Below are positions 39,847 through 45,537 of a DNA stretch of 64,000 bases, piece by piece. Numbering within the stretch: position 1 is the stretch's first letter; every line of letters begins with the position of its first letter. The stretch is taken from positions 1 through 64,000 of the forward strand of contig SVGM01000009.1 in NCBI GenBank assembly GCA_015056365.1, given 5' to 3'. The position numbers and the translations under genes were made by a program. Source of the DNA: Clostridiales bacterium (GTDB taxonomy: Bacteria; Bacillota; Clostridia; Christensenellales; Aristaeellaceae). The notes beneath the pieces were generated by a model, which saw only the letters and a program-made list of their open reading frames with translations, was not told the origin of the DNA and did not search any database.

Positions 39847-40878
39847 ATGATACGAAGGACCTCGTGCATCATCGCCAGAAGCAGCGATCCCTGCCGCAAC
39901 CTGGCCATTGAGAAGCATCTGATGGATACGCTGCCGGAAGATACGGCCATTCTGTTTCTCTATCAGAACGACTGTGCCGTTACCGTAGGACGCAACCAGA
40001 ATCCCTGGTATGAATGCAATGTGGAACCCTACCTGGAATCCGGCGGTACGCTCACCCGCAGACTCAGCGGCGGCGGCACGGTATATCAGGACCCCGGCGT
40101 GCTGAACTTCAGCTTCATCCTGCCAAAGACCCACTTCAACACCAAACAGCAGCTGAATATGGCAGCAGCGGCCGTCCAGCGCATGGGCATCCCGGTGCAG
40201 TCCGCTCCCGGCGGCAGCATTGCCTCTCTGGGCCGCATCTTCTCCCAGAACGCTTTTTTCAAGGCAGGCTCCACCGCCCTGCACAACGGTTCCCTGCTGG
40301 TTCATGCAAACATCGATGCCATGGAAAGCTTCCTGCTCCCGGGCGGCAAACGGCTCAAGGGCAAAGCACGCCCCAAAATCGACTCCCTCTACGGCAACCT
40401 AAGGGAGATCAGCCCGGAGATTACCATCGAAGGGCTGGAAGAATCCCTATACAATGTATTTGCATCCACCTTCGGCACACAGCCGGTCTTTCTGGATGAG
40501 CAGATGCTGGACGAGCGCACCATCGAGCAGCTGACCCTGCAATTCGCCAACCCGGACTGGGTGTATCCCGAGGCGTTGCCCTACAATTTCTCCGTGGACG
40601 AGCACTTCCCCTGGGGCGACGTTACCGTGCTCCTGTGGCGGGAAAACGGCGTCATCCGCGCCTCCCGCATCTTCTCGGACGCTATGGAAGCCGCTCTGTT
40701 TGACCGCATCCAGCAGGCGCTCACCGGCTGTCCGTTCCTCATCGGCGCCATCGGCACCCGTTTTCAACAGCGCCTGGGTCTGATCAAAGACCCTCGGCTG
40801 CTTCAGATCGCCGGCGATGTATGCACCCTGATCTGTGGCCGCATCCGCGCCATGGACAGGCAAGGCGAAGGCGCCTGA
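39847..40878 (+). CDS. lipoate-protein ligase A-like protein lacking the catalytic lysine
   Basis: A 343-residue protein with the LplA fold: N-terminal ligase domain to about residue 250 and a C-terminal accessory domain. RRLSGGGTVYQD (71-82) is the lipoyl-AMP loop, with Gln81 where His is usual. The motif that in LplA reads GRKxSGxA is here GRIFSQNAF (129-137), so the lysine that contacts lipoyl-adenylate is Ile131 and the Gly is Gln134. ALHNGSLLVHANI corresponds to the HHGTLL strand. It may bind a different acid or be inactive. It is monocistronic, ending at a strong terminator. Confidence 0.78.
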   Translation: MIRRTSCIIARSSDPCRNLAIEKHLMDTLPEDTAILFLYQNDCAVTVGRNQNPWYECNVEPYLESGGTLTRRLSGGGTVYQDPGVLNFSFILPKTHFNTKQQLNMAAAAVQRMGIPVQSAPGGSIASLGRIFSQNAFFKAGSTALHNGSLLVHANIDAMESFLLPGGKRLKGKARPKIDSLYGNLREISPEITIEGLEESLYNVFASTFGTQPVFLDEQMLDERTIEQLTLQFANPDWVYPEALPYNFSVDEHFPWGDVTVLLWRENGVIRASRIFSDAMEAALFDRIQQALTGCPFLIGAIGTRFQQRLGLIKDPRLLQIAGDVCTLICGRIRAMDRQGEGA

Positions 40879-41990: not shown

Positions 41991-42920
41991 TTATGCCTGA
42001 ACGGCGGTGTCCTGCTCCGTCTTGGGCACGAACACGTTGTCCGGCTTGTCCACATGGTACTCGCAGCCGTTGTTGTAGAACACCTGCTCCGGAGGCGTTT
42101 CCAGCAGCTCGGGATTCTTCAGGCACTTGTTCATCGCCGCAAAGAAGCGGGCGTACATGGCGCCGCCGCAGACGCGCTCGTCAGCGGTAATGCCGATGGG
42201 CAGCGTACACTTGCGCACGGGGTTGCCCTGGGCGTCAACGGTATTGTAGCGCTGGGGCTTGCCCATGCCGAAGAACAGGCTGGTATTGCCGAAGTTGTAG
42301 ATATGATGATACACCTTCATCAGGCCAATGGAAGCGTTGTTGGTAATGAACATGCTGGTATGGAAGGGCAGTTCATCCAGCAGCGCCTTGGGGCACAGGC
42401 CGTAGCGGTCCAGCAGCTTCACCAGGCCCACCACGGCAGTGGCCAGGCCGGGCACCTTCAACAGCGTGGACGCCAGCTTGATCACAAAGCTGCCCGCAAC
42501 GGGATCGCGGTTGCTATTGATGGCCTTCTGCACGCGGGCATTTACGTCGTAGATGGTATCGGTGGGATCGAAGAAGATCTTGACGGCATTCTCCTCGATG
42601 CTGCCGTCGGGGGTATTGAGCAGCAGGGTGAAGCTGACGGTCAGTTCCTTGCGGTTGTAAAACTGCTTGTTCATGATGAAGCGATTGACCTCAGGCACCT
42701 GGGACACGCCGCGCACGAAAGCGGCGATGATGATCTCCATAAAGGTGATCTTCACGCCTTCACGGGCCTTTTTGGCGATGTAGCGCATCAGGGTTTCGTA
42801 TTCCACCTCATGATCCAGGAACACCTGCGCGTCGCAGCGCATGGGCATCAGGTACGGGGTAATCTGCACAATGGGGTCGATGTCCTTTACACGGCGGCCT
42901 TCCGGACGAAATCCAAACAT
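41991..42920 (-). CDS. lipoyl-less 2-oxo acid dehydrogenase E2-like acyltransferase
   Basis: A 309-residue protein with the chloramphenicol-acetyltransferase/E2 catalytic fold but no lipoyl or peripheral-subunit-binding domain. The C-terminal segment LPIGITADERVCGGAMYARF aligns with the E2 motif DHRxxDGA, with Glu248 for the catalytic His and Gly252 for Asp. Lipoyl-less relatives in Clostridia keep DERxCDG in my memory, so the His loss is a family feature and the Asp loss is extra. Ser or His residues elsewhere (HTSMFITNNASIG) follow the E2 pattern. Substrate unknown. ATG at 42920 follows AAAGGAAGG. Confidence 0.75.
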   Translation of the reverse strand: MFGFRPEGRRVKDIDPIVQITPYLMPMRCDAQVFLDHEVEYETLMRYIAKKAREGVKITFMEIIIAAFVRGVSQVPEVNRFIMNKQFYNRKELTVSFTLLLNTPDGSIEENAVKIFFDPTDTIYDVNARVQKAINSNRDPVAGSFVIKLASTLLKVPGLATAVVGLVKLLDRYGLCPKALLDELPFHTSMFITNNASIGLMKVYHHIYNFGNTSLFFGMGKPQRYNTVDAQGNPVRKCTLPIGITADERVCGGAMYARFFAAMNKCLKNPELLETPPEQVFYNNGCEYHVDKPDNVFVPKTEQDTAVQA

Positions 42921-42990
42921 GAGTATCCTTCCTTTCGTAAGATCCGCGCCACGCCGCCCTGCTGGTAACGAAAGATAATGGCACATATGA

Positions 42991-43048
42991 GAATCAGGCA
43001 ACGTTCAGCGTATGAATCAGGCCTATTGTACCCTGAAACGCCTGATTC
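42991..43048. promoter_or_regulatory. three GAATCAGGC operator boxes
   Basis: GAATCAGGC occurs at 42991-42999 and 43014-43022, and inverted as GCCTGATTC at 43040-43048. The last two flank the -10 of the promoter at 43025-43053 and the third lies downstream of the start. Such placement suggests a repressor site. Confidence 0.6.
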
Positions 43049-43053
43049 GTCAA
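43025..43053 (-). promoter_or_regulatory. promoter of the E2-like gene
   Basis: Minus strand TTGACG (43053-43048), 17-nt spacer, TACAAT (43030-43025), start near 43018, inside the second operator box. The leader is about 98 nt. Confidence 0.8.
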
Positions 43054-43132
43054 GGAAAACCAGGCTTTTGACCAGCATAAGAACAACCGCAGCGCACCCA
43101 CTCCCGCTTAGGCAGGCACTTGCCCAAAATAC

Positions 43133-43164
43133 AAAAACCGCCATGCAAGCGCATGACGGTTTTT
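43133..43164 (-). terminator. terminator of the zinc-ribbon gene
   Basis: AAAAACCGYCATG arms pair around a 5-nt loop, with TTTTT and then TGTATTTTGG on the minus strand, 11 bp after the stop codon. Confidence 0.9.
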
Positions 43165-43175
43165 GATTCCATCTA

Positions 43176-43454
43176 TTAAGCCTGGCGATGGGCGGCAAAG
43201 CACTCGCTACAGTAGATGGGACGGTCGCTCTTGGGAATGAAGGGCACCGTGGTGGGAGCGCCGCAGGCAGCGCAGGTGGTTTCGTAGGACTCGCGGGGAG
43301 CGTTGGCGCGGTTGGCCTTGCGGGCAGCGCGGCACTCCTTGCAGCGGGTGGGCTCGTTCTGGAAGCCCTTTTCAGCGTAGAACTCCTGCTCGCCGGCAGA
43401 GAATACGAATTCAGCGCCACAATCGCGGCACACCAAAGTCTTGTCTTCGTACAT
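43176..43454 (-). CDS. double zinc-ribbon protein
   Basis: A 92-residue protein with four CxxC knuckles: CRDCG, CKECR, CAACG and CSECF, forming two zinc ribbons. EFVFSAGEQEFYAEKGFQNE between the first two is characteristic of a widespread but uncharacterised zinc-ribbon family. Nucleic-acid or ribosome contact is plausible. The ATG at 43454 follows GGAGG (43468-43464). The transcript appears to start with the structured RNA at 43485-43692. Confidence 0.85.
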   Translation of the reverse strand: MYEDKTLVCRDCGAEFVFSAGEQEFYAEKGFQNEPTRCKECRAARKANRANAPRESYETTCAACGAPTTVPFIPKSDRPIYCSECFAAHRQA

Positions 43455-43484
43455 GGTTGGGATCCTCCGATTTTCAATGAATTG

Positions 43485-43692
43485 TGCATTCGGCTGACCT
43501 GGTCTTTGCCCCCACACTCGCCGACTGGAGGGTCTGCTCATCGCGTCAGCGCCCTACTCGCCCTCTCTCGCCGCGTACGGCGGTCGGACTTACCTCTAGA
43601 ACGCGCCATGCTCACCGGGACTTTTGCCCGGCTTACGTGGACCGCTTTGCCCGCGTCTGGCATCGGCTTGCAACCACAGACCCGAATGCAAC
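43485..43692 (-). ncRNA. structured RNA of about 208 nt, leader or stand-alone; class unproven
   Basis: A strong promoter starts a transcript near 43692 that opens and closes with TGCATTCGG (43690-43682) and CCGAATGCA (43493-43485), a 9-bp closing stem. Inside are CCGGG/CCCGG, CCGC/GCGG, GTCTG/CAGAC, CCGAC/GTCGG and GAGGG/CCCTC pairings, some crossing. No reading frame in this span has a ribosome site. It ends 17 nt before the GGAGG of the zinc-ribbon gene. Size, closing stem and host group fit the raiA-type RNA of Clostridia; 6S RNA is an alternative. I could not run a covariance search. Confidence 0.6.
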
Positions 43693-43698
43693 GGCAAC

Positions 43699-43727
43699 AT
43701 TATACGGCGCAGGGTGGTAAAATTCAA
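43699..43727 (-). promoter_or_regulatory. promoter of the structured RNA and zinc-ribbon gene
   Basis: Minus strand TTGAAT (43727-43722), 17-nt spacer, perfect TATAAT (43704-43699), start near 43692, immediately at the RNA's closing stem. Confidence 0.8.
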
Positions 43728-43804
43728 GGGGTATTTCTGTATCCAACTTGCATTTCTTTCCATTTTTTGAGATTTCTGGACACAAAGCGCCTTGTTATTT
43801 CCCC

Positions 43805-43833
43805 TTTACACCCTTTTTTTCTTCGTGTATACT
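43805..43833 (+). promoter_or_regulatory. promoter of the Na/Pi transporter gene
   Basis: TTTACA (43805-43810), 17-nt spacer with a T-tract, TATACT (43828-43833), start near 43840, giving a leader of about 63 nt. Confidence 0.78.
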
Positions 43834-43902
43834 GTATGCGTACATAATGGGTAAGAATGGAGATTTCGTCACGAAGGATGGCGAAAAAGGAGGAAACAAC
43901 CA

Positions 43903-45537
43903 ATGAGTTTCTCAACGGTACTTTCGCTGATGGGCGGTCTGGGACTGTTCCTATTTGGTATCAACATCATGGGCGACGGCCTTGAGCAGGCCGCCGGTAA
44001 CCGCATGAAAAAGCTGCTGGAGGTGCTGACCAAGAACCGCTTCGTCGGCATGCTGGTAGGTCTTTTTGTTACAGCTGTCATCCAGTCCAGCTCCGCCACC
44101 ACGGTTATGGTGGTGGGCTTCGTCAATGCCGGTCTGCTCCAGCTGGCGCAGGCCATCGGCGTGATCATGGGCGCCAACGTCGGTACTACGGTTACTTCGC
44201 TGATGCTGTCAGTCGATCTGGATTTCAGCATGATCTTCTGCGCCATCGGCGCCGTCTGCCTGCTGGCAGGCAACCGCTCCGGCCTGAAAACGCTGGGCCA
44301 GATCATGCTCGGTCTGGGCATGCTGTTTGTGGGTATGGACACCATGTCCGAAGCCATGAAGCCCCTGCGTGACTGGGACGGCTTCCGCAATATGATGGCC
44401 GCAGCTTCCAATCCCGTGGTGGGCGTGCTGGTAGGCGCCGTGGTCACTGCTGTGGTACAGTCCAGCTCCGCCAGCGTCGGTATTTTGCAGGCCGTTGCTG
44501 CAACAGGCGCCATCAGCCTGCAAGGCTGCATGTACATCCTGTTCGGTCAGAACATCGGTACCTGTATCACCGCTATGCTGGCCAGCGTGGGCACCAACCG
44601 TACCGCCAAGCGCGCAGCTGTGGTTCACCTGCTGTTTAACTGCATCGGCACGCTGGTCTTTATGGTGATTGCCTCCCTCCTGCCCTTGGCTGACTGGGTG
44701 CAGACCATGGCGGGCGACAATCAGCGCTTCCAGATCGCTCTGGTGCATATCATCTTCAACGTCACCATGACCGTGCTGCTCCTGCCTGCTGCTCCCTTGC
44801 TGGAAAAGCTGGCCTGTCTCATCGTGCGCGGCGACGCCGATCTGCAGGAGCCCATGAAGCTGTGCCACTTCGACACCCGTTTGTTCTCCACGCCCCCGGT
44901 CGCGGTGCAGCAGCTGTTCCGCGAAGTACAGCGTATGGCGGATATCGTAACGGAGAACTTCCGCTTCGCCATGGACTACTTCTTCGATCCCAAAGATAAG
45001 GACATCAACGACTTCAACCACCAAGAGGAAGTTGTGGACTACCTCAACGCCGAGATCACTCAGCATCTGATCGAAGCAAAAGGTCTGAGCCTGAACAACA
45101 ACGACAACCGTCTTGCCGGTTCCCTGTTCCATGTGGTCAACGACCTGGAACGCATCGGCGACCATTGCGTTAACATCATCGACATCGCCGACGCCCGCGC
45201 CAAGGAAAAAACCGCCTTCTCCTCCAAAGCAGAAGCCGAAATCCAGCAGCTGTCCGACATGGTGGTCACCATGCTGGAGAAGAGTATCAGCATTGTTAAG
45301 GCGCAGATCACCGACGTAGACGTGATCGGCGAAGTCATCCAGCTGGAAAGCAAGGTGGATGACCTGAGCGAACAGCTTGCCGCCCATCATGTGGACCGCG
45401 TCAAGAACAAGAAGTGTACCCCCAAGAACGGTATGCTTTATCTGGATATGATGAACAACCTGGAGCGTATCGCCGACCATGCGGACAACCTGGCCGCTTC
45501 CGTGGAGAAGAAAGAAACCAACACCCTGCTGTGGTAA
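43903..45537 (+). CDS. Na/Pi cotransporter family protein with PhoU domain
   Basis: A 544-residue transporter. Two inverted membrane repeats carry the signatures VIQSSSATTVMVVGF and VVQSSSASVGILQAV, which form the sodium and phosphate sites, within about nine helices (residues 1-305). A cytosolic PhoU-like helical domain (about 340-540, with ERIGDHCVNI and ERIADHADN) follows. It imports phosphate with sodium; in some bacteria relatives mostly export it. AAGGAGG lies 9 nt before the ATG. Single gene between a promoter and a terminator. Confidence 0.93.
   Translation: MSFSTVLSLMGGLGLFLFGINIMGDGLEQAAGNRMKKLLEVLTKNRFVGMLVGLFVTAVIQSSSATTVMVVGFVNAGLLQLAQAIGVIMGANVGTTVTSLMLSVDLDFSMIFCAIGAVCLLAGNRSGLKTLGQIMLGLGMLFVGMDTMSEAMKPLRDWDGFRNMMAAASNPVVGVLVGAVVTAVVQSSSASVGILQAVAATGAISLQGCMYILFGQNIGTCITAMLASVGTNRTAKRAAVVHLLFNCIGTLVFMVIASLLPLADWVQTMAGDNQRFQIALVHIIFNVTMTVLLLPAAPLLEKLACLIVRGDADLQEPMKLCHFDTRLFSTPPVAVQQLFREVQRMADIVTENFRFAMDYFFDPKDKDINDFNHQEEVVDYLNAEITQHLIEAKGLSLNNNDNRLAGSLFHVVNDLERIGDHCVNIIDIADARAKEKTAFSSKAEAEIQQLSDMVVTMLEKSISIVKAQITDVDVIGEVIQLESKVDDLSEQLAAHHVDRVKNKKCTPKNGMLYLDMMNNLERIADHADNLAASVEKKETNTLLW

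Follow-up and report, generated by a model that had tools for sequence, protein, structure and literature searches.

We have found that the minus strand of a 64,000-nt stretch of clostridial DNA (the whole stretch analysed, hereafter the window, to which all coordinates refer) encodes at 43690-43485 an RNA of an already described family, raiA (alias ModT), and that the zinc-finger gene next to this RNA is a conserved neighbour of raiA, a point that the initial annotation of the locus did not contain. We consider it probable (roughly 0.6) that a trans-acting raiA RNA is made here as the leading segment of a bipartite transcript that also carries the zinc-finger gene, and that the RNA then becomes a stable species.

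Results

The Rfam covariance model of raiA (RF03072) matches the window at 43690-43485 on the minus strand over model positions 1-209, with 187.3 bits (cut-off 101.3; E 8e-48); apart from it, only three tRNAs in the 64-kb window score above an Rfam cut-off. This full-length match settles the class, and the initial annotation, which had guessed at a raiA-type RNA, was correct on this point. It had also taken the density of possible helices as a sign of structure, which is a weak argument: folded by itself, the sequence reaches -85.8 kcal/mol (z -1.30), an unremarkable value that 20 of 200 shuffles equal or surpass. It is because of the score of the covariance model and the covariation, and not because of helix density, that we regard the RNA as structured. 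In an alignment of 84 rows from the window's family (two rows with long inserts, L112 and L113, were omitted), standard pairing is found in 81% of cells over the 57 Rfam pairs, compared with 34-48% in controls in which the pairing partners were slid by 1-3 columns, and double-sided changes occur in 36 of the 57 pairs (636 cells) compared with 19-27 pairs (108-262 cells) in the controls. The helices thus covary in homologues, where a lack of covariation had been named beforehand as grounds for abandoning the proposal. Many core pairs are nearly invariant in the 84 rows and hence uninformative for covariation, and five Rfam pairs (54-81, 55-80, 61-74, 134-155 and 135-154) are standard in at most 10% of rows, a poor fit that is perhaps due in part to a register shift. 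Matches to raiA above cut-off are present in 85 of 100 genomes of the window's family and in none of 14 control genomes; low-scoring copies occur in G067 (124.7 bits) and G028 (108.5 bits). We note that in another family of the class, f45, the raiA matches (L127, L131-L135) span 335-348 nt instead of approximately 205-210 nt, pointing to a large insert in six of six.

The elements on which the initial annotation was built (promoter, stem and 448-bp gap) are all present at the locus. The gap separates the start of the zinc-finger gene (ATG at 43454) from that of its divergent upstream neighbour (43903), a Na/Pi transporter with PhoU domains. It contains a predicted sigma-A-type promoter, TTGAAT-17-TATAAT (43699-43727, minus strand), that matches the consensus at 10 of 12 positions and is one of three promoter-like sites returned by a scan of 42800-44000, compared with 0.7 expected. 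Transcription starting approximately 7 nt past the -10 box would begin near 43692, 2 bases ahead of the Rfam start at 43690. The interval first proposed for the RNA, 43485-43692, begins at this likely transcription start. The RNA (43485-43690, minus strand) is closed by a perfect 9-bp stem between 43690-43682 (UGCAUUCGG) and 43493-43485 (CCGAAUGCA), and, as judged from the sequence, the raiA RNA of the window would have its own housekeeping promoter with a start at this stem. A 30-nt spacer follows (43455-43484, minus strand), in which a heuristic search detects no terminator and in which the ribosome site GGAGGA (43468-43463) lies 16 nt from the 3' end of the RNA. The gene behind it (43176-43454, minus strand) encodes 92 aa that comprise two zinc-finger domains of the treble-clef type (PF13451 zf_Tbcl and PF23477 zf_Tbcl_2), and its product also matches TIGR04272 (CxxC-x17-CxxC), the profile scores of 92.7, 66.2 and 65.9 bits all exceeding the curated cut-offs. 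On the 3' side of this gene is an intrinsic-terminator-like hairpin of 15 pairs with a 4-nt loop and a T-rich tail (43132-43165, minus strand); with this hairpin as its end, the transcript would be approximately 560 nt long. Elsewhere in the window (41991-42920 on the minus strand and 39847-40878 on the plus strand) we noticed a stand-alone partial 2-oxoacid-dehydrogenase acyltransferase-like domain, covering profile positions 150-230 of 232, near a lipoate-protein ligase.

We refer to a locus as linked if raiA is followed by a two-domain zf_Tbcl gene on the same strand, and to the window's family as f1. Among the 86 raiA matches above cut-off in f1 (three fragments below cut-off were excluded), 71 are linked, as are 70 of the 82 with at least 250 nt of downstream sequence. 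Searching the class returned 57 genomes with raiA, 56 besides the window's own, of which 53 were counted; the other three belong to family f6 and have no zinc-finger motif in the 4-7 kb of sequence covered. Linkage is found in 20 of the 53 counted loci (f24, 11/11; f45, 6/6; f5, f40 and f53, 1/1 each), so that it is seen in six families including f1, and the 33 unlinked loci are spread over ten families. The spacer between the RNA and the zinc-finger gene measures 28-66 nt, except in f24, in which it measures 113-120 nt. Because family genomes that possess PF13451 carry only one to three copies of it, this spacing is not a product of chance. A pattern consisting of the raiA 3' end, a gap of 36-66 nt and a zinc-finger start is found in at least 120 stretches of public genome contigs; the 80 pattern matches listed include Clostridia, Clostridiales, Eubacteriales and Christensenella, many of them from the rumen or gut, and two named matches are both assigned to the Eubacteriales within Clostridia by NCBI taxonomy. 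A partial literature search found no tie between raiA RNA and a zinc-finger gene, and the word 'zinc' has no occurrence in the available text of PMC11706538 and PMC11751092. Such a report would most probably be found in Soares 2024 or Weinberg 2017, which lay outside this search, so we do not claim to be the first to describe the association.

The usual neighbours of raiA RNAs are comFC upstream (74%) and raiA/hpf downstream (66%; Soares 2024 as quoted in PMC11706538). Using phmmer on 1.5 kb at each locus, with hpf, a gene of ribosome hibernation, taken as the homologue of the raiA gene, we found neither of these neighbours, which are common but not defining, within 1.5 kb in the window; the hpf gene of the window's genome is on a different contig. 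Among the linked f1, linked class and unlinked class loci, a comFC-like gene lies upstream in 14 of 71, 5 of 20 and 17 of 33, respectively, and hpf follows within 1.5 kb in 0 of 71, 12 of 20 and 25 of 33 (three of these 25 were checked with family models). When the search was widened to 4 kb for loci with at least 3.5 kb of sequence (43 in f1, 23 in the class), hpf was found in none of the 42 linked loci of the window's family with enough sequence. In the 12 linked class loci with hpf (10 of 11 in f24, 1 of 1 in f5 and 1 of 6 in f45) this gene lies on the same strand behind the zf_Tbcl gene, so the zinc-finger gene there sits between raiA RNA and hpf, and the transcription unit may be longer in these loci; the remaining f24 locus runs off the end of its contig. 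The loci with this arrangement of raiA RNA, zf_Tbcl and hpf are L041-L043, L045, L049, L056, L117, L121, L122, L124, L127 and L128.

Several features bear on whether raiA and the zinc-finger gene are transcribed together. Ahead of raiA, the promoter-like match averages 9.3 of 12 positions in linked loci (n = 89, 2 of 91 dropped for short flanks; 7.2 when shuffled) and 10.4 of 12 in unlinked loci (n = 48; 7.0 when shuffled). A heuristic search of the short spacer detected a terminator in 0 of 91 linked loci, whereas the same kind of search over a longer stretch, 120 nt after raiA, detected one in 17 of 45 unlinked loci (3 of 48 were dropped for short flanks). Only 41 of 88 linked loci have a terminator within 110 nt behind the zinc-finger gene (3 of 91 were again dropped). 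The f1 spacer is too short to hold a promoter of the zinc-finger gene's own, and a promoter inside the raiA RNA could conceivably serve this gene. raiA and the zinc-finger gene appear to share one transcript in these Clostridia.

Either part can be found without the other. Twelve of the 82 assessable f1 loci and the 33 unlinked class loci have raiA and no linked zinc-finger copy; in the 12 f1 loci raiA is high-scoring, and 11 of the genomes have only an unlinked paralogue and one has no PF13451 match. In the class, 18 of 57 genomes with raiA have no PF13451 match, as counted from the genome table of the search. Many family genomes hold two zinc-finger copies. In a tree of 90 of the 91 linked proteins and 40 unlinked proteins picked from the listed matches, which is based on few columns, does not resolve 55 of its 123 inner branches and requires 4 changes of the linked label, 20 unlinked f1 copies form one clade (SH-aLRT 99), and the linked copy is distinct from this unlinked paralogue. 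Among 15 family genomes without raiA, eight have a PF13451 gene; it belongs to the unlinked type in seven of them and to the linked type in the eighth, G072, the types having been assigned by eye and the genomes being incomplete. G072 retains a promoter-like box, a ribosome site and an intact zinc-finger gene behind an approximately 113-nt raiA remnant (21 bits; L305:200-360) that has kept its 5' part and 3' end and lost its middle. Such independent occurrence counts against the idea that the zinc-finger gene needs raiA as its switch, and equally against the idea that raiA RNA needs the zinc-finger protein as its partner.

The longer, conserved leader between raiA and the zinc-finger gene in f24 (113-120 nt in L041, L042, L043, L045, L047, L049, L056, L117, L121, L122 and L124) is confined to f24 among the 291 class genomes (11 genomes) and always occupies this position; in the loci tried, no Rfam model scores above its cut-off on it. 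It may form nested arms (GUG/CAC, GGU/ACC and AGAAC/GUUCU), and its loop AUCCC could pair with GGGAU of the ribosome site, which is invariant in the 11 rows, in a candidate pseudoknot-like arrangement over the start site.

Discussion

We favour the reading that the 5' portion of the zinc-finger transcript gives rise to raiA as an RNA in its own right. Transcription would begin at the promoter directly ahead of the closing stem, pass through raiA and the spacer, which has no detected terminator, and continue through the zinc-finger gene to the terminator behind it. Cleavage or trimming in the spacer would then most likely yield a stable, compact RNA of approximately 205-210 nt, and the zf_Tbcl protein would be translated from its own ribosome site. 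The shared transcript and the cleavage in the spacer are what we infer from the layout of the locus and its homologues; abundance and action in trans would be expected here by analogy with other species. ModT ranks with the most abundant and most stable transcripts of C. difficile, and its long form rivals 5S rRNA in stability; it is transcribed from a SigA promoter, its action is in trans, and both the stationary-phase change and sporulation are affected by it (PMC11706538). The initial annotation had wavered between a very long regulatory leader and an abundant RNA with a passenger gene. The separate loss of either part favours an independent RNA over a long leader, and so narrows the choice toward the former without closing it.

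A sub-case of this explanation is that the zinc-finger gene is hitch-hiking, borrowing a strong housekeeping promoter without any functional tie to the RNA. The separate losses and the different neighbours of raiA elsewhere are what one would expect of a passenger, but the same gene family is found directly behind raiA in six families and the f1 pair stays together with no hpf nearby, and we regard a mere passenger as conceivable, if somewhat improbable.

It is also possible, and in our estimation distinctly less probable, that RNA and protein constitute a functional unit, with zf_Tbcl either partnering raiA RNA or taking part in the process that the RNA serves. The recurrence of linkage in six families, the raiA-zf_Tbcl-hpf order in f24, f5 and one f45 locus, and the retention of the RNA-zinc-finger pair in f1 even though hpf is absent from the neighbourhood are all consistent with such a unit, as is the divergence of the linked f1 copy from the unlinked paralogue. 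The finding that the linked type persists in just one of the eight raiA-less f1 genomes with a zinc-finger gene, and there behind a raiA remnant, points the same way, and first signs of protein association have been described for ModT (PMC11706538). Nevertheless, the 12 f1 loci with a high-scoring raiA and no linked copy, together with the raiA genomes of the class that have no PF13451 match, speak against it, and a fold search returned nothing specific. We think it similarly doubtful that a raiA-zinc-finger unit, whether a ribonucleoprotein or a dual-function transcript, arose inside the raiA RNA-hpf neighbourhood and persists where hpf is located elsewhere. Were there such a unit, genome context would have pointed to zf_Tbcl as a candidate partner protein for raiA RNA.

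The least probable of the alternatives, and one we consider unlikely, is that raiA acts in cis here as a long leader that tunes the translation or stability of the zf_Tbcl message. Rfam files raiA as cis-regulatory/riboswitch; order, strand and short gap are fixed in 91 loci, the short and near-constant f1 spacer being also what is expected of a cis-regulatory leader; and, as far as seen, the promoter is found only ahead of the RNA. A review describes the distance between raiA RNA and gene as unlike that of a riboswitch (PMC11477304), but in the window's lineage this distance would fit one. When RNA, spacer and gene start are folded together in silico, the ribosome site is predicted to be largely base-paired (unpaired value 0.35 on average, exceeding 0.5 in 14 of the 71 linked rows), and the f24 loci have an extra leader whose AUCCC could pair with the invariant GGGAU of the ribosome site. 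The fitting distance and the predicted pairing thus leave room for control in cis. However, the pairing partners of the ribosome site differ, with none in common among the 13 of 71 rows inspected, raiA occurs without a linked zinc-finger gene in 12 of 82 f1 and 33 of 53 class loci, the gene persists behind a decayed raiA in G072, and the action reported for the RNA of C. difficile is in trans (PMC11706538).

The initial annotation had mentioned that raiA-type RNA is implicated in sporulation. That link comes from other species; in the window's family a Spo0A_C match is present in 58 of 100 genomes, including the window's own, and is absent from 31 of the 71 genomes with a linked unit, 24 of these 31 being at least 90% complete, which makes sporulation unlikely as the general role of raiA. 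We also note that a further Spo0A_C-like match in the window's genome (G000:C16:138745-138996) is read through one TAG, that a match in its genus mate G057 likewise contains one TAG, and that an unlinked zinc-finger paralogue lies approximately 2-4 kb from a Spo0A_C match in G065:C22, G090:C6 and G005:C3. The lineage separates raiA RNA from sporulation and offers natural losses of either part of the unit, and the linkage supplies a concrete protein, zf_Tbcl, to test in connection with raiA RNA.

Conservation of this RNA family extends over more than 2,500 species (PMC11706538), and structures of the C. acetobutylicum raiA RNA have been solved (PMC11751092, PMC12286853). The RNA of the window resembles the raiA motif RNAs of C. 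difficile (ModT) and C. acetobutylicum in matching RF03072 at 209 of 209 positions and in having a sigma-A-type promoter match at its closing stem, and it shares the covarying helices of the Rfam family, including a 7-pair helix that we equate with pk-1 of the solved structure. In C. difficile, the forms of the RNA terminate at two sites (PMC11706538), whereas no terminator was detected in the spacer of the window. Unlike the usual raiA RNA, that of the window has a zf_Tbcl gene starting 30 nt behind it. OLE RNA, which has the protein partner OapA, is abundant and structured and is encoded next to a small-protein gene. The raiA-zinc-finger pair is like OLE in that a structured RNA adjoins a small-protein gene, and differs from it in the RNA family to which that RNA belongs.
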